Assembly (NCBI RefSeq): GCF_029502005.1 | Contig: NZ_JAMQOT010000001.1 | Location: 558,001 to 622,000 of the forward strand | DNA from: Natrinema salsiterrestre | GTDB lineage: Archaea; Halobacteriota; Halobacteria; Halobacteriales; Natrialbaceae | Length of the DNA stretch: 64,000 nucleotides | Reading direction: 5' to 3' | Translations under genes and position numbers: made by a program | Notes under the pieces: model-generated | What the model was told of the DNA's origin: nothing | What the model saw: the letters and a program-made list of their open reading frames with translations, nothing else | The model's database searches: none | Shown: positions 38,830-45,125 of the stretch, one piece after another | Layout: each line of letters opens with the position of its first letter | Numbering within the stretch: position 1 is the stretch's first letter

Positions 38830-39294
38830 TTACTCCATCACGTCGAGGTCGCGGAAGTACGTGACCGGACAGGGGGCCTGCAGGATAATTTCCTGCGAGA
38901 CCGAGCCGAGAACCGCTTTTTCCGCCGGCGAGCGCCGGCGGCCGCCGACGACCATGCGATCCGCGCCGACGTCGATGGCCATGTCGACGACTTTGGTGCT
39001 GACCTCGCCGAGCGCGCCCTTGATCTCGTACTCGACGCCGGCCTCCTCGAAGCGTTCGGCGAGTTCCGGGACCGGTGCGCGTTCGGCGGCGACCTCATCG
39101 GGGTCGACGTCGTCGACGCGCGCGTCGAAGCCGAGGTCGTCGTGGACGTCCTCGTACTCGTCTTCAGTGAAGGCGTGTCCGATCACGACTTTGGCACCGA
39201 GGGGGTCGGCGATCTCGAGAACGGTTTCAGCGAGTTCCGGCGCGCGCACTGAGTCCATCGGTCCGACTGCGAGAAGTACCGTATCGATTGCCAT
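38830..39294 (-). CDS. Universal stress protein (UspA domain)
   Basis: 154 residues from ATG 39294 (MAIDTVLLAVGPMDS). The UspA fold is seen in the first strand TVLLAVGP, the VVIGHAF strand and the nucleotide-binding loop GADRMVVGGRRRSPAEKAVL, where most ATP-binding Usps have G-x2-G-x9-G-S/T. The replacement of a Gly by Arg in that loop also occurs in the neighbouring paralogue at 39444, so both form a subfamily. It is probably a nucleotide-sensing stress protein. An upstream in-frame extension to 39384 is not conserved. Confidence 0.85.
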   Translation of the reverse strand: MAIDTVLLAVGPMDSVRAPELAETVLEIADPLGAKVVIGHAFTEDEYEDVHDDLGFDARVDDVDPDEVAAERAPVPELAERFEEAGVEYEIKGALGEVSTKVVDMAIDVGADRMVVGGRRRSPAEKAVLGSVSQEIILQAPCPVTYFRDLDVME

Positions 39295-39443
39295 ACCGTC
39301 ACAGTGGTGGGGCCATCCGCTTAAGTATTCTCGTCGTTGCAGTATTGCGGAAACGGCCGGCAGTCGCCGCGGTGTGGTCGCCATCGCAGCGACGGGGGCG
39401 ACCGATTGATCTGCGTGGTGACAGTATCGGACGATTCGGTCAG

Positions 39444-39896
39444 TCAGTCGTGGCGGACGAACGTGACGGGACAGGGGGCCGACAGCAAGACCTCCTGTGC
39501 CGTCGAACCGAAGACGGCCTTGCCGGTCGGCGATCGGCGGCGGCCACCGACGACGACCCGGTCCGCCCCGGTGCTCGTCGCCAGATCGACGATCGAGGGC
39601 CCGTGTTCGCCGACGGCACCCCGGACCTCGTAGTCGACGTCGTGCTCGTCGAGGATCGCCTGCAAGTCCTGAATCGTCGAGTGCCGGCCCGCGACCGCGT
39701 CCGGATCGATCTCGTCGACCGTTCTGTCGAACTCGAGTCGGTCGAGCACCTCGCCGTACTCGTCGTCGGTGAAGACGTGTGCGAGAACGACGGTCGCATC
39801 GGCGGGTTTCGCTACCTCGAGGACCGCTTCGGCCAGCTGTTCGCTTCGATCGGCATCGCCCGGTCCGACGGCGAGCAGGACAGTTTTCAGCGTCAT
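39444..39896 (-). CDS. Universal stress protein, paralogue of the neighbour
   Basis: 150 residues from ATG 39896 (MTLKTVLLAVGPGDADRSEQ). Same architecture and motif GADRVVVGGRRRSPTGKAVF, STAQEVLLSAPCPVT as the gene at 38830, indicating tandem duplication. It is divergent from the SDR gene, with 103 nt between starts. Function is inferred from the family only. Confidence 0.85.
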   Translation of the reverse strand: MTLKTVLLAVGPGDADRSEQLAEAVLEVAKPADATVVLAHVFTDDEYGEVLDRLEFDRTVDEIDPDAVAGRHSTIQDLQAILDEHDVDYEVRGAVGEHGPSIVDLATSTGADRVVVGGRRRSPTGKAVFGSTAQEVLLSAPCPVTFVRHD

Positions 39897-39999
39897 AGCG
39901 TAACTATTGACTCGGGATCCTGTAAATCCACGTCTTCGAAACAATCAACGGTGTTTTAGTTCCGGATGGTTTTTGCGTACAGTCGACCAGAGGAGACGC

Positions 40000-40740
40000 A
40001 TGGAGGAACCAGACCTCTCGGGACGGACGGTGCTCGTCACGGGGAGCGCGACGGGCGTCGGCCGCGAACTCCTGCTGGCGACGGCCGACTGCGGCGCGCG
40101 GACGGCGGTTCACTACCACACGAGCGCCGACGCCGCCCGCGACGCGGCCGAGGACGCCCGCGAGCGCGGTGCCGAAGCGACGATGACGGTTCAAGGCGAC
40201 GTCACCGACCCCGAGAGCGTCGACGGCCTCTTTGCGGCCGTCGAATCCGAACTCGGGACGGTCGACGTCCTGGTCAACAACGTCGGCGACTTCGCCCCCG
40301 CCCACTGGGCGGATATCGAGTTCGACACCTGGAATCGGGTCCTCGAGACCAACCTCAACGGGACCGCCCTCTGTTCGAAGCGGGCACTGCCGGCGATGCG
40401 GGAACGCGAGTACGGCCGGATCGTGAATATCGGGTACGCCTCGAGCGGGCAGGGACTCGTCAGCCCGAAGAACTTCCCCTACTTCGTCGCGAAGGCGGGC
40501 GTGTTGATGTTCACGCGCATGCTCGCGGCGGACACGCAGGACGACGGGATCACGGTCAACGCGATCTCCCCGTACGTCGTCGAGAACTCCGACGAGTTCC
40601 CCGAGGAGCTGCCGCGGGGCCGGCCGGCGAGCTTCGACGACCTGATCGCGCCGCTGTACTTCTTCGTCGATCCGGACAGCGAGTACGTCAGCGGCGAGAA
40701 TATCGAGGTCGACGGCGGCTGGTTGCCCGAGCGAGTATAG
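40000..40740 (+). CDS. SDR-family oxidoreductase (3-oxoacyl-ACP reductase-like)
   Basis: 246 residues from ATG 40000, preceded by AGGAG at 39991-39995; the in-frame start at 39907 gives a non-conserved leader. Rossmann motif VTGSATGVGRELL, NNVGDF, and catalytic YFVAKAG (Tyr and Lys) with upstream Ser (YASSGQG). The end, EYVSGENIEVDGGWLPERV, is the usual SDR C-terminus. It reduces or oxidises a carbonyl/hydroxyl with NAD(P); substrate unknown. Its 3' end sequence recurs at 40877-40920 and 41771-41814. A strong stem with a T run follows. Confidence 0.88.
   Translation: MEEPDLSGRTVLVTGSATGVGRELLLATADCGARTAVHYHTSADAARDAAEDARERGAEATMTVQGDVTDPESVDGLFAAVESELGTVDVLVNNVGDFAPAHWADIEFDTWNRVLETNLNGTALCSKRALPAMREREYGRIVNIGYASSGQGLVSPKNFPYFVAKAGVLMFTRMLAADTQDDGITVNAISPYVVENSDEFPEELPRGRPASFDDLIAPLYFFVDPDSEYVSGENIEVDGGWLPERV
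40697..40740 (+). repeat. SDR 3'-end repeat, copy 1 (in the gene)
   Basis: The last 44 nt of the SDR gene, coding ENIEVDGGWLPERV and the stop. A 26-nt core (40697-40722) is identical in copy 2 at 40877-40902, exactly 180 nt away, with only scattered changes beyond. Confidence 0.8.
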
Positions 40741-40764
40741 GCGGCTCCGCTACGGTCTGCTGAG

Positions 40765-40794
40765 CCGCGGCGCGACGCGCCGCGGGGCGTTTTT
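40765..40794 (+). terminator. Terminator after the SDR gene
   Basis: A 10-bp GC-rich inverted repeat (40765-40774 with 40776-40785) is followed by GGCG and a run of five T (40790-40794), an intrinsic-terminator layout just after the SDR stop. A second hairpin with an 8-bp stem lies at 40826-40844. Confidence 0.55.
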
Positions 40795-40876
40795 GGTCCA
40801 GATTTTTGCAAGGAGCGGGTCTCGAGCGGTGCGCGACGCACCGCGAGGGCCCCCGACGCAGTAAAAAGGTGGGTGC

Positions 40877-40920
40877 AGAATATCGAGGTCGACGGCGGCT
40901 GGCTGCCCGAGCAGGTATAA
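40877..40920 (+). repeat. SDR 3'-end repeat, copy 2
   Basis: Repeats the SDR 3' end with 26 identical nt and encodes the same C-terminus with one change (ENIEVDGGWLPEQV, stop). No SDR gene precedes it; it follows a spacer. Together with copy 1 it forms a diverged 180-nt tandem unit, seen also in the following sequence (GAGCCGCGGCGCGACG versus GAGCCGCAGCGCGATG). Confidence 0.75.
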
Positions 40921-40988
40921 CAGGCCGCGGCCACGAACTCTCGAGCCGCAGCGCGATGTGAATTTTCCCCTATGGACTCCGCTAACTG

Positions 40989-41330
40989 CTACTCGTCGCC
41001 GACGTTGTTGAGCGCGCTGTTCAACTCGAAGAGTTCTCGGATGACGTTGCTGTCTGCGACCCGGTACCGACGTGGAGACGTGTTCGGAACCTCCTCGATG
41101 AGTTCGACCTCGAGCAGAAGGTCGGTGTAGTTGCCGACAGTTTGGCGTGTGACGCCGGCGTGCTCTGCGAGTTCAGTTTTGTTGAACTCGCGGTTCGGCG
41201 GAAGATCGAGTAACGCATCGACGAGGATCGGGATGGCGTCGTGCTGCGTGAGGTAGAGCCACCCGCTGGGGTGCTCTCTGCGGAGTTCCTTCTTCTCCTC
41301 GCGGTCAGCCGCGTGATCCATGCTACTCAT
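40989..41330 (-). CDS. Winged-helix transcriptional regulator
   Basis: 113 residues from ATG 41330 (MSSMDHAADREEKKELRRE). Core: IPILVDALLDLPPNREFNKT, then ELAEHAGVTRQTVGNYTDLLLEVELIEE, a clear wHTH with recognition helix RQTVGNYTDLLL, and a short wing NTSPRRYRV. It would bind DNA as a dimer. It is divergent from the 104-residue gene, with a 93-nt region between them that holds two similar half-sites; auto- and cross-regulation is likely. It lies between repeat copies 2 and 3. Confidence 0.75.
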   Translation of the reverse strand: MSSMDHAADREEKKELRREHPSGWLYLTQHDAIPILVDALLDLPPNREFNKTELAEHAGVTRQTVGNYTDLLLEVELIEEVPNTSPRRYRVADSNVIRELFELNSALNNVGDE

Positions 41331-41423
41331 ACAGAGAAAGACAAGCTGTGCGTGTATAAGTATTTCCACTACCGTTAACGGCCATTAACAGCATTTATTT
41401 GGCGTCGACTTTGTTCTTCGATT
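41331..41423. promoter_or_regulatory. Divergent promoter with paired half-sites
   Basis: Reverse TATA-like box at about 41352-41361 (CTTATACACG on the minus strand) and forward CATTTATTT at 41392-41400, 24 nt before ATG 41424. Between them GTTAACGG and ATTAACAG (about 41374-41390) are two similar half-sites a few bases apart, a plausible shared operator for the winged-helix gene product. Confidence 0.45.
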
Positions 41424-41738
41424 ATGGAGAAGCCGTCGGTGAAATGCTCCCTGTTGGCAACGATGATAGCGAAACACAAGTGGGGCACACCGATCACGGA
41501 GGAAGCGCTCCTCGATCTCTCAGCGATTAACGGCGATTACCCCACTGCGCGCGAAGTCTACGCCGACCTTCGCAGTGAGCCGTATATCATTTACCGCGGG
41601 AACCGCGGTATCAAACTCGACAAGAGCAACTTCGACAAACTCGCCGACGTCCTCTACCACGACTGTGGCTGGGAGGGTTGGGAAATCGACAGTCGACTGA
41701 AACATTACGAAGGCATCGAGGACCACGACTGGGCGTAA
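41424..41738 (+). CDS. Small haloarchaeal protein of unknown function
   Basis: 104 residues from ATG 41424 (MEKPSVKCSLLATMIAKHKW). A helical first half (ITEEALLDLSAIN, then TAREVYADLRSEPYIIYRGN) resembles a small wHTH or DNA-mimic fold; the second half has an aromatic, acidic end (CGWEGWEIDSRLKHYEGIED). A leaderless promoter is implied by TATA spacing. It pairs with the divergent regulator; function unknown. Confidence 0.65.
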   Translation: MEKPSVKCSLLATMIAKHKWGTPITEEALLDLSAINGDYPTAREVYADLRSEPYIIYRGNRGIKLDKSNFDKLADVLYHDCGWEGWEIDSRLKHYEGIEDHDWA

Positions 41739-41770
41739 TTACGAGTTTCGGTCTGATTACCGAGGAGTGG

Positions 41771-41814
41771 TATACATCGAGGTCGACGGCAGTTGGTCGC
41801 CCGAACGAGTGTGA
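41771..41814 (+). repeat. SDR 3'-end repeat, copy 3 (diverged)
   Basis: Reads YIEVDGSWSPERV and stop TGA, the same C-terminus as the SDR gene with two substitutions. A 15-nt block (ATCGAGGTCGACGGC, 41776-41790) is identical to copies 1 and 2. It lies just after the 104-residue gene, so copies 2 and 3 flank the regulator cassette in direct orientation. Confidence 0.7.
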
Positions 41815-42008
41815 CGGATCGACGACGTTTGGCCGCACCTTTTCCTGCCATCGGCCCCTGCGATCGGTATGGTTCTCCCGGTCGCGATGGGGTGGCGCCA
41901 CCTGCTCTTCGCCAACTGATCCGTCGCTGGAAACGAGGCGGTCGGACCGAGGTGTGAAGCACGAAATCTCACACCACGCTTAACAGAGTCCTCGCCCTCG
42001 AGTCGCGT

Positions 42009-42476
42009 ATGCGAATCGCAGTCGCCGGCACGTTCGGGCCGCTCCACGACGGGCATCGCACCCTGGTCGAACACGCGCTTCGGTTCGGCGAGGACGGCGT
42101 CGTCGTCGCGCTGACCAGTGACGAACTGGCAGTCGAGACGCGCCACGAGCCGCGCCCCGTTCCGTCGCTCGAGGAGCGGATGCAGGCGATGACTGACATG
42201 ATCGCGGACCTCGACGAGTGGGATCGCGACGTCGAACTCCGCACCCTCGAGACCGAGTACGGCATCGCGACCGACGAGCCGTCGATCGACGCGCTGGTCG
42301 TCTCCCCGGAGACGGCCCCCGAACTCGAGGCGATCAACGACCGGCGGCGCGAACGGGGGTTCGGGCCGCTGTCCGGAATCGTCGCCCCCTACGTTTACGC
42401 CGACGACGGCGAGCGGATTTCCTCGACGCGGATCGTGAAGGGCGAGATCGACGAGCACGGGCGCGTGCTCGAGTAG
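42009..42476 (+). CDS. coaD: Phosphopantetheine adenylyltransferase, archaeal type
   Basis: 155 residues. GTFGPLHDGHRTLVEHAL is the nucleotidyltransferase H-x-G-H box and YVYADDGERISSTRIVKGEI contains the ISSTR motif. It converts 4'-phosphopantetheine and ATP to dephospho-CoA. The archaeal enzyme differs from bacterial CoaD in sequence but shares this fold. Single gene. Confidence 0.92.
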   Translation: MRIAVAGTFGPLHDGHRTLVEHALRFGEDGVVVALTSDELAVETRHEPRPVPSLEERMQAMTDMIADLDEWDRDVELRTLETEYGIATDEPSIDALVVSPETAPELEAINDRRRERGFGPLSGIVAPYVYADDGERISSTRIVKGEIDEHGRVLE

Positions 42477-42511
42477 GGACCAAAGCACCGCGGCCGCGAT
42501 CGGCGGATCGA

Positions 42512-43309
42512 CTAGACGAACGTCAGCGGCACCATAACGAGAATCCCGACGACGATACCGCCCGCGAGCTCGGGCTTGCCGCCGTTCGGTAACCGCTCCC
42601 CGATGTCCAGCGCCTCGGGGACGAACTCCGTGAGCACGAGGTAGATCATCGCGCCGGCGGCGAAGCCGAAGCCGTAGGGCAGGAACTCGCGGGCGTAGCG
42701 GACGAAGCCGAACGCGAGGACCGCCCCGATCGGCTGGGGGAGACTCGAGAAGACGGCCCACCAGACCAGTTTCCAGTTGGCGACGTCCATCGAGCGCAGT
42801 GGGATCGAGATCGCGGTCCCCTCCGGAATGTTGTGAATCGAGATCGCGATCGTCATGAAGATCGCCAGCACCGGGACGGTAAAGCCGAGGAACTGGGTCC
42901 CGCCCTCGAGCCCGAGGTCCGCAAAGGAGACGCCGATCGCCACGCCCTCGGGGAAGCTGTGGACGGTCAGGATGCCGAGGATGAGGACGAGCTTCTTGAA
43001 ATCGGCCGCCTCGTACTGCTTCGGATCGATATCGGAGTCCATCAGCACGTCGTGAGCGACGACCACGAGCGCGACGCCGGCCGCCATGCCGACCGCGATC
43101 TCGAGGGGCGTCCCCTCGGCCAGCCCCTCATCGATGAGACCGAACGTCGACGCCGAAATCATGATACCCGAGGACAACCCCCAGAGAATCACGTTTCGCC
43201 GGTCGCTGATCCCCTCGAAGAAGAAAAACGGGAGCGCGCCGATCCCCGTCGCCAGCGCCGTGATCAGGCCGGCGACGAACACTAACAGGAGGTTCTCCAG
43301 CAGCGCCAT
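42512..43309 (-). CDS. ZIP family metal transporter
   Basis: 265 residues, about eight membrane spans. Two His-x-x-Pro-Glu-Gly motifs, HSFPEGVAIG and HNIPEGTAIS, are the metal-transport site of ZIP proteins (ZupT-like); the variable loop near residue 95 is acidic (DSDIDPKQYEAADF) rather than His-rich. It imports zinc or other divalent cations. It converges on coaD. Confidence 0.9.
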   Translation of the reverse strand: MALLENLLLVFVAGLITALATGIGALPFFFFEGISDRRNVILWGLSSGIMISASTFGLIDEGLAEGTPLEIAVGMAAGVALVVVAHDVLMDSDIDPKQYEAADFKKLVLILGILTVHSFPEGVAIGVSFADLGLEGGTQFLGFTVPVLAIFMTIAISIHNIPEGTAISIPLRSMDVANWKLVWWAVFSSLPQPIGAVLAFGFVRYAREFLPYGFGFAAGAMIYLVLTEFVPEALDIGERLPNGGKPELAGGIVVGILVMVPLTFV

Positions 43310-43484
43310 CTACTGACGTATCGAACTGCGCGTATAAATCGACGACGAAAGCGGACGTTGCGCGCGGTTCACTCCGACAAAACCCGCCATATGACGGAGG
43401 CACAGTACGCCAGCCCGACTGAGATTTCCGAGGGCCCTCATCTCGACCGATACCATCAACAGCCGTCCGTCGGTTAGGTCGCGT

Positions 43485-45125
43485 ATGTCACTGTGGAGCT
43501 CTCACCGCACCCGTCATTATTTCCTGTTGGTGGCCGTGACGACCATCGGCTCCACGTTGTTGTACAATTACGGCATGGCAACGTGGGAAAACGACCCGCA
43601 GCCGCTCTTTCGATCGCTTGGCATCGTCTTTCAGTCGTTCACGACGACCGGCTACGGCGAGGATGCAGGGTGGACGACGCCGCAAATGTACATATTGACG
43701 ATCGGACTACAGCTCATGGGAATCGGACTGATCCTCACCGCAGTCGACGTCTTCGCGGTGCCGTGGCTCCGAAACACGCTGGCGGTCACGCCACCGACGA
43801 GCGCCCCGACCGTCGAGAACCACGTCGTCATCTGCGAGTACACGTCCCGCGGCGAGGCGTTCATCGAGGAGCTCGAGTCCCGCGGCGAGGAGTACGTCAT
43901 CGTCGAGTCCGACGAGGAGCGGGCGAGGACGCTTCACGAGGACGACTATCGCGTCGTCCACGGCGATCCGGAATCGATGACGGTGCTCGAGAACGCCGGA
44001 ATCGAACGGGCGAAGGCGGTCGTGACCGATTCGGCCGACGATACGAACGCGAGTATCGTCCTCTCGGCGCGCGAGGCGAGCCCCGACGTGCAGATCGTGA
44101 CGCTGGTCGAGGACCAGCGCCTCGCGGAGTATCACGAAATCGCGGGCGCGGACGAGGTGCTGTCGCCGCGCCAGTTGCTCGGCGAGAGCCTCGCCCATCG
44201 AGTGCCGACGGCCGTGACGACCGCGGTCGACGAGGGGGTCGAAATCGGAGACGATCTGGAGCTGGTCGAGCTCTCGATCGCCGAGGGAAGCGACCTCTGC
44301 GGACGGACCGCGGACGACGTCCAGCCGCGCGAACGGTTCGGCGTGGACGGAATCGGCGCCTGGATCGACGGCGAGTTCGAGAGTCCGATTCCGCCCGGCC
44401 GCGAGCTCGACGCGGGGGTGCGGCTACTCGTCGCGGGGAAGCCGGAGCGGATCGAAACCCTTCGAGCGGAAGCGATGTCGACGGTCCAGCCCTTCTCGGC
44501 CCAACACGTGCTGCTCGCCGGCTACGGCGAGGCGGGCGCGACGGCGGGCGCTGCCCTCGCCGATACGAACACGCGAGTAACCGTCCTCGACAGCGCCGAC
44601 AAGGACGGCGTCGACGTCGTCGGTGACGCCCGCGATCCGGCGGCAATCCGCGAGGGCGGTATCGACGACGCGTCCGCGGTGATCGTCACCCTCGACGACG
44701 ATACGACCGCGATCTTCGCGACGCTGGTCGCGCGGGATCTGAACCCGTCGGTCGACGTCATCGTCCGGGCGAACGACACGGAAAACGTCCAGAAACTGTA
44801 CCGTGCGGGTGCCGACTACGTTCAGTCGCTGGCGACGGTCAGCGGCCGAATGCTGGCCTCCACCGTCTTCGAAGACGAGGAGGTCCTGGCCGTTGACAGA
44901 CAGATCGACGTCGTGAAGCTCCCCGCCGGGCGGCTGGCGGAACGGACGGTCGTCGACGCCGACGTTCGCTCGCGAACTGGCTGTACCGTCCTCGCCGCGG
45001 TCAGGGACGGCGAGACGATCACGGAGTTCGATCCGGCGTCGTTCACGGTCCAAGAAGGCGACGAGGTCGTCCTGGCGGGAACCGACGAAAGCGTCCGATC
45101 CTTCGAGGAGGCGTTTCTCGCCTGA
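43485..45125 (+). CDS. Two-RCK potassium channel
   Basis: 546 residues. Two membrane helices (HYFLLVAVTTIGSTLLYNYG and MYILTIGLQLMGIGLILTA) flank a pore loop FQSFTTTGYGEDAG with the TTGYG selectivity filter. Then RCK-N (VVICEYTSRGEAFIEELESR), a TrkA-C domain, a second RCK-N (VLLAGYGEAGATAGAAL) and a second TrkA-C end. K+ selective, gated by a bound nucleotide or ion; it takes part in the high-K+ homeostasis of halophiles. Normal length. Confidence 0.92.
   Translation: MSLWSSHRTRHYFLLVAVTTIGSTLLYNYGMATWENDPQPLFRSLGIVFQSFTTTGYGEDAGWTTPQMYILTIGLQLMGIGLILTAVDVFAVPWLRNTLAVTPPTSAPTVENHVVICEYTSRGEAFIEELESRGEEYVIVESDEERARTLHEDDYRVVHGDPESMTVLENAGIERAKAVVTDSADDTNASIVLSAREASPDVQIVTLVEDQRLAEYHEIAGADEVLSPRQLLGESLAHRVPTAVTTAVDEGVEIGDDLELVELSIAEGSDLCGRTADDVQPRERFGVDGIGAWIDGEFESPIPPGRELDAGVRLLVAGKPERIETLRAEAMSTVQPFSAQHVLLAGYGEAGATAGAALADTNTRVTVLDSADKDGVDVVGDARDPAAIREGGIDDASAVIVTLDDDTTAIFATLVARDLNPSVDVIVRANDTENVQKLYRAGADYVQSLATVSGRMLASTVFEDEEVLAVDRQIDVVKLPAGRLAERTVVDADVRSRTGCTVLAAVRDGETITEFDPASFTVQEGDEVVLAGTDESVRSFEEAFLA

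Follow-up and report, generated by a model that had tools for sequence, protein, structure and literature searches.

In Natrinema salsiterrestre, a non-coding element of about 136–137 nt with no gene inside, here named E, is found between two copies of the 3' end of an SDR gene. The window in which it was found is a stretch of 64,000 nucleotides, and the same element recurs at many unrelated haloarchaeal genes, each with its own end repeated. The reading we prefer, with a probability of roughly 0.55, is that E arrived by insertion and is now spread or exchanged by homologous recombination, in which the gene-end copy would act as the right arm. E is a conserved and covarying element, matched in almost every haloarchaeal genome searched and without a match in Rfam.

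Copies of the SDR gene end

All three SDR 3' ends reported in the initial annotation are real and form one repeat family (40697–40739, 40877–40919 and 41771–41813), copies 1 and 2 being 93% identical and copy 3 77%. The 26 identical nucleotides claimed at a spacing of 180 nt between copies 1 and 2 were recovered as well and make up the first 26 nt of both. The core ATCGAGGTCGACGGCNGNTGG has three exact matches in the 4.79-Mb genome and its reversed control none, so that by this measure the three ends are unique in the genome. In 1.24 Mb of sequence, comprising 60 related loci and the window, the only spaced direct repeats of a gene end are those at the SDR site; the remaining repeats, judged by eye, are tandem-array-like or lie within coding or low-complexity sequence. 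The features are collected in Table 1, in which the SDR gene is taken to start at the ATG at 40000, while the ORF list gives a TTG start at 39907. Upstream of the gene, two adjacent minus-strand ORFs (38830–39384 and 39444–39944) are similar to each other and look USP-like by eye.

Table 1. Features at and downstream of the SDR gene, in window coordinates
Feature	Position	Strand	Evidence
Short-chain dehydrogenase (SDR) host gene, 246 aa	40000..40740	+	ORF list; Pfam adh_short_C2, E=5e-43
Copy 1, functional SDR 3' end with stop codon, left repeat	40697..40740	+	Repeat-family search
hp1, GC-rich palindrome CCGCGGCGCGACGCGCCGCGG, left part of E, followed by the first T-run	40765..40785	+	Read from the sequence
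Conserved E box GTTTTTGGTCCAGATTTTTGC	40789..40809	+	One match in the window; 0 in 100 shuffles
E hairpin core, box through GGTGG	40793..40872	+	Covariance model R1, 50.4 bits, E=1.8e-13
E right terminus, GGTGG + GTGC, abutting copy 2	40868..40876	+	GGTGG plus about 4–5 nt precedes the repeat at most repeat-bearing sites
Copy 2 of the SDR 3' end	40877..40920	+	Repeat-family search
Probable palindrome start of a second E unit	40943..40956	+	13/14 nt identical to 40762–40775, spacing 181; putative E remnant
Winged-helix-like passenger gene	40989..41369	-	ORF list; no Pfam family above cut-off
Divergent 104-aa ORF, passenger	41424..41738	+	ORF list; no Pfam match
Copy 3, SDR 3' end, diverged; presumed original end	41771..41814	+	Repeat search; DUF2071 remnant after copy 3
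DUF2071 gene remnant, 16 codons then stop	41869..41916	+	tblastn, E=8e-6

Structure of E

E is about 100–140 nt long, palindrome included, and is built from a GC-rich palindrome, the box T5-6-GGTCCAGA-T5-6, a long hairpin, and A5-6-GGTGG followed by about 4 nt. The copy in the window reads hp1, T5GGTCCAGAT5, long hairpin and A5GGTGG + GTGC, after which copy 2 begins. Palindromes like hp1 stand ahead of the T-run in most of the E copies inspected. Among 45 aligned E cores, compensatory changes are seen in 9 of the 14 predicted pairs, and 116 of 120 cores have the better fold on the + strand. This points to a single-stranded + form, either RNA or DNA. Rfam gave no match at E<=5 for window positions 39000–44000 and none at the gathering threshold in eight loci.

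Variants of the layout have also been observed. The argF copies of six genomes carry an extra hairpin between GGTC and CAGA: G115 (locus L321), G125 (L350), G126 (L346), G127 (L344), G145 (L322) and G147 (L335). A sister family is possibly represented by loci L218 and L244, whose similar-looking units have TTTTTTCATCAACGTTTTTT where E has the GGTCCAGA box and carry AAAAAAGGTTGG on the right.

Distribution of E in haloarchaea

With model R1 at E<=0.01, E is matched in 56 of 61 haloarchaeal genomes; the counts per genome run from 0 to 42, with 20 in the genome of the window, and are rough, given the strict search filters. In the latter genome, E-like sequences are found at argF, ileS and a thiolase gene, each with its own gene end repeated. 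Exact searches, with a 16-mer in 100 genomes and with an 18-mer in named genomes, gave at least 153 distinct E sites, in a sample biased by exact k-mer matching toward sites with an exact box. Among the matches listed, 74 of 153 sites have E flanked by a direct repeat with a score of at least 20, while pairing the left flank of one E site with the right flank of another gives 4 of 153; at a score of at least 30 the corresponding counts are 63 and 0.

The repeat-bearing sites are spread over many genes, with 61 of them grouping into at least 29 gene clusters. E often lies at the end of a housekeeping gene. Host genes named include ileS, pheT, gyrA, gatB, argF, hisF and thiolase, and hosts assigned by the family search include isoleucine- and phenylalanine-tRNA ligase, GyrA, GatB, ornithine carbamoyltransferase, HisF, acetyl-CoA acyltransferase, a phosphotransacetylase domain, SufS, ETF alpha, HMG-CoA synthase, diphthamide synthase and a DapD-like protein. 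At the 54 sites where the host stop codon could be placed, the repeat starts 21–114 nt before the stop (median 44) and ends a median of 3 nt past it (range -17 to +108), and the right copy retains a stop codon in 53 of the 54. The identification of the repeat as a gene end applies to these 54 sites. A tandem array at a thiolase gene (G000 C20:62486-62623; L103, L104) has two E units among three gene ends.

About half of the collected sites end with no repeat. Here the neighbour of E is often a convergent gene, whose stop codon it adjoins, and at some sites an apparent tRNA 3' end, as judged by eye. At eight loci (L175, L205, L208, L214, L224, L233, L246 and L248) the right end of E adjoins an apparent opposite-strand tRNA 3' end with no gene-end repeat. 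One such site, at a TRAM-domain gene, has E in some members of the genus and a decayed E or none in the others, again without a gene-end repeat.

Carriage of E by viruses was considered and dropped: 35 IMG/VR contigs contain the 17-mer, and none showed E in its setting in the stretches inspected, most of them being low-GC. A search of the literature and of the motif sequence recovered, among the matches listed, no paper recognised as being about E.

Filled and empty sites in relatives

The SDR gene is present in 77 of 100 genomes drawn from the genus, family and order, and for 60 of the 77 the 20 kb downstream of it were taken. A second SDR end lies 150–212 nt past the first in about a dozen of the 60, with the same E between the two wherever the interval was read. 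In many other relatives, the gene end runs straight into other DNA, and a few look decayed. The comparison of occupied and empty SDR sites proposed in the initial annotation has found both kinds. In the sister genomes G028 (filled) and G021 (empty), the DNA downstream of the gene end in G021 follows copy 2 in G028 with a 60-nt identity of 1.00. At argF, 22 of 52 genomes have a second gene end after E or an E variant and 30 have neither, and the downstream DNA of the E-less relative again follows copy 2 (G147/G046, 0.92; G059/G153, 0.87); in the other SDR and argF pairs the downstream DNA is too dissimilar to place. On the SDR tree, the presence of E requires at least 11 changes.

The comparison shows E inserted at the gene end, with a gene end on both sides and the native downstream DNA after copy 2. 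Since the E-less relatives have one gene end and share the DNA that follows copy 2, the insertion at a gene 3' end proposed in the initial annotation is supported. Its other part, an att site specific to the SDR gene, is ruled out by the recurrence of the same E at many unrelated genes with their own ends repeated.

Divergence of the two copies

Over 86 pairs, copies 1 and 2 differ synonymously at 128 codons and non-synonymously at 72; the pairs were chosen by nucleotide similarity and are non-independent, several of them sharing ancestry. The non-synonymous share is 0.36, while the neutral simulation gives 0.76 and never less than 0.68 in 500 runs. A stop is replaced by another stop 22 times against 3.5 expected under neutrality, and lost 9 times against 14.9. 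With mainly synonymous differences and stops swapped for stops, the copies bear the signature of coding constraint, and neutral decay of copy 2 is hard to maintain. Copies are more similar within than between genomes, both for SDR (0.886 versus 0.817) and for argF (0.897 versus 0.851), a difference reached in 0 of 20,000 permutations for each gene. We read the copies as probable functional ends of different alleles, or as ends refreshed from such alleles, which is what recombinational exchange of E with E-less alleles would predict.

A foreign origin of copy 1 is clearly visible in one close pair only, G028/G021, in which the similarity to the sister is 0.87 for copy 1 and 0.95 for copy 2. It does not hold as a general rule, since in the other pairs copy 1 is either the nearer of the two or about as near as copy 2.

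A probable second unit between copies 2 and 3

As the initial annotation states, the winged-helix gene and the ORF divergent to it lie between copies 2 and 3; they do not lie between copies 1 and 2. The counterpart in G001 of the remnant after copy 3 belongs to the DUF2071 family (E=5e-71), and in E-less relatives a DUF2071 gene directly follows the SDR end. As the remnant of this native downstream gene comes after copy 3, copy 3 would be the original SDR gene end. G020 has, in this order, end 1, E, end 2, an E broken by an insertion, end 3 and the DUF2071 gene. The stretch with the gene pair (40989–41738) has a 93% alignment in G010, where the pair is present and a third SDR-end copy was not found. 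Copies 2 and 3 apparently enclose a second, older unit, which may have been invaded by the winged-helix pair as a later passenger.

Origin and spread of E

In the recombination model, ordinary homologous recombination would carry an E that lies between two copies of a conserved gene end into E-less alleles, the left arm being the gene body and the right arm the gene-end copy; recombination between the flanking repeats would remove E scarlessly. Exchange with E-less alleles, together with gene conversion between genome copies, could hold both copies protein-like; such conversion is known in Haloferax volcanii, and haloarchaea are polyploid (PMC4056108). E would also supply the host gene with a putative palindrome/T-run terminator, and this may make it tolerable to the host. 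In a Haloferax volcanii reporter, a T stretch ended 95% of transcripts (PMC7237163). More tentatively, and as less probable than not, we suggest that E is a new kind of selfish element that lacks its own enzyme: a non-coding, structured insert crossing species through the homologous recombination of its hosts, with its copy of a conserved gene's end as a portable homology arm. If E spreads by recombination alone, it would show that a non-coding insert can be mobile and revisit the same genes across genera, and gene exchange among species of haloarchaea would have a natural record in E. An integrase att site is not the only possible meaning of repeated gene ends.

The recombination model would cover spread and persistence, and the first entry of E into about 29 genes lies outside it, as do the roughly half of sites that end without a repeat. 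The nearly constant right terminus over many unrelated genes (GGTGG plus about 4–5 nt) speaks against the model and argues for an enzyme. An unnamed transposase or nuclease might accordingly move E and make an unusually long and variable target duplication at gene ends, with recombination only reshaping the copies later, and the sites before and after insertion do resemble insertion with target duplication. We consider this unlikely, although it is the strongest of the rivals. Ordinary transposases make short target duplications, and the repeats at E, at 21–114 nt to the stop, are longer. Several E-rich genomes have no Y1 transposase match (20 E and 0 Y1 matches in G000, 20 and 0 in G004, 42 and 0 in G065, 21 and 0 in G084), and such genomes, with 20–42 E matches and none to PF01797, do not support a Y1 transposase as obligatory partner. 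A reverse transcriptase as the driver was also rejected, RVT_1 being matched in 0 of 61 genomes in a search whose positive controls worked. An enzyme alone would moreover leave the synonymous bias between the copies unaccounted for. Two candidate signals at the right junction were discarded: the in-register match to GGTGG, sought as microhomology with the target, is 0.32 and falls within the 0.24–0.44 of other offsets, and a preference for AGA (7 of 29 clusters; other windows average 2.3 and reach at most 4) is too weak.

Less probable again is an origin close to the idea of the initial annotation, in which integrase-borne elements, with att sites at gene 3' ends like those at tRNA genes, left E and its repeats behind as remnants. 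The repeat lengths are like the 29–69 bp (median 45) of crenarchaeal att sites and archaeal elements are known in the 3' regions of protein genes (PMC6563490), and the displaced native end and rebuilt gene end agree in form. Such an origin fits poorly with one conserved E at many different gene ends, in contrast to the single site of an integrase, with the viral contigs described above (0 of 35 like E in setting), and with the 20 kb downstream of SDR in 60 genomes, which held no second SDR end beyond about 1.2 kb resembling the boundary of a large island. It is quite improbable that E is a resident bidirectional terminator whose gene-end copies came from replication slippage or template switching at its hairpins. 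The many no-repeat sites directly adjoining a convergent stop codon or tRNA 3' end, the persistence of E at the TRAM gene in part of the genus and the termination of transcription at T stretches in Haloferax (PMC7237163) would suit a terminator, but slippage of a gene end with E predicts an E after the second copy too, where single-E sites have native DNA, and the copies differ like alleles under coding constraint. That copies 2 and 3 are the last traces of decayed full tandem duplicates is scarcely credible. Nothing was found in its support: a full SDR pseudogene ahead of the second copy, which according to the initial annotation would indicate simple decay, was seen in none of the relatives having that copy, nor was any full or partial second SDR gene seen in relatives; the E-less relatives contradict it, and the same structure surrounds the same E at many other genes.

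Comparison with known systems

E resembles the integrative elements that use a tyrosine recombinase and have their att sites at the 3' ends of tRNA and other genes, among them, in Thaumarchaeota, protein genes (PMC6563490). Both have an intact gene end on one side and a displaced partial one on the opposite side, with repeats of similar length. As in such elements, the direct repeat rebuilds the gene end and displaces the old one. In contrast to them, E has only about 100–140 nt and codes for nothing, the SDR-site copy holding no gene and hence no integrase of its own. Whereas such an element type has a single site sequence, the gene ends that flank E differ among at least 29 clusters.

The SMRs, PATEs and MITEs of haloarchaea, described in Haloquadratum (PMC3119063), are like E short, non-coding, palindromic and dispersed, with no transposase. 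SMRs and PATEs are described as being without target duplication (PMC3119063), whereas about half of the E sites collected have long flanking repeats specific to the gene. The direct repeats behind repeat-mediated deletion in Haloquadratum (PMC3119063) permit traceless loss, which would yield E-less alleles and accounts for the loss of E only. A MITE would have the inverted terminal repeats of a known transposon and a short target duplication, from which E appears to differ in being a single covarying hairpin with unlike ends and repeats of 21–114 nt up to the stop. The Y1 transposase that goes with an IS200/IS605-derived PATE or REP has no match in genomes with 20–42 E matches, the reverse transcriptase of a non-autonomous retroelement (RVT_1) has none in the 61 genomes, and the Rfam match of a known RNA family was not seen in the window region and eight loci searched. 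REP and BIME elements are, like E, short conserved hairpins in the 3' flanks of genes; E differs in its flanking gene-end repeats and in needing no Y1 transposase match in the same genome. Finally, the T-stretch terminators of haloarchaea (PMC7237163) resemble the T-runs of E, which stand just past the gene, the first of them after a GC-rich palindrome. Compared with these terminators, E is conserved and covarying, has defined ends, is patchy in its distribution and is insertable.
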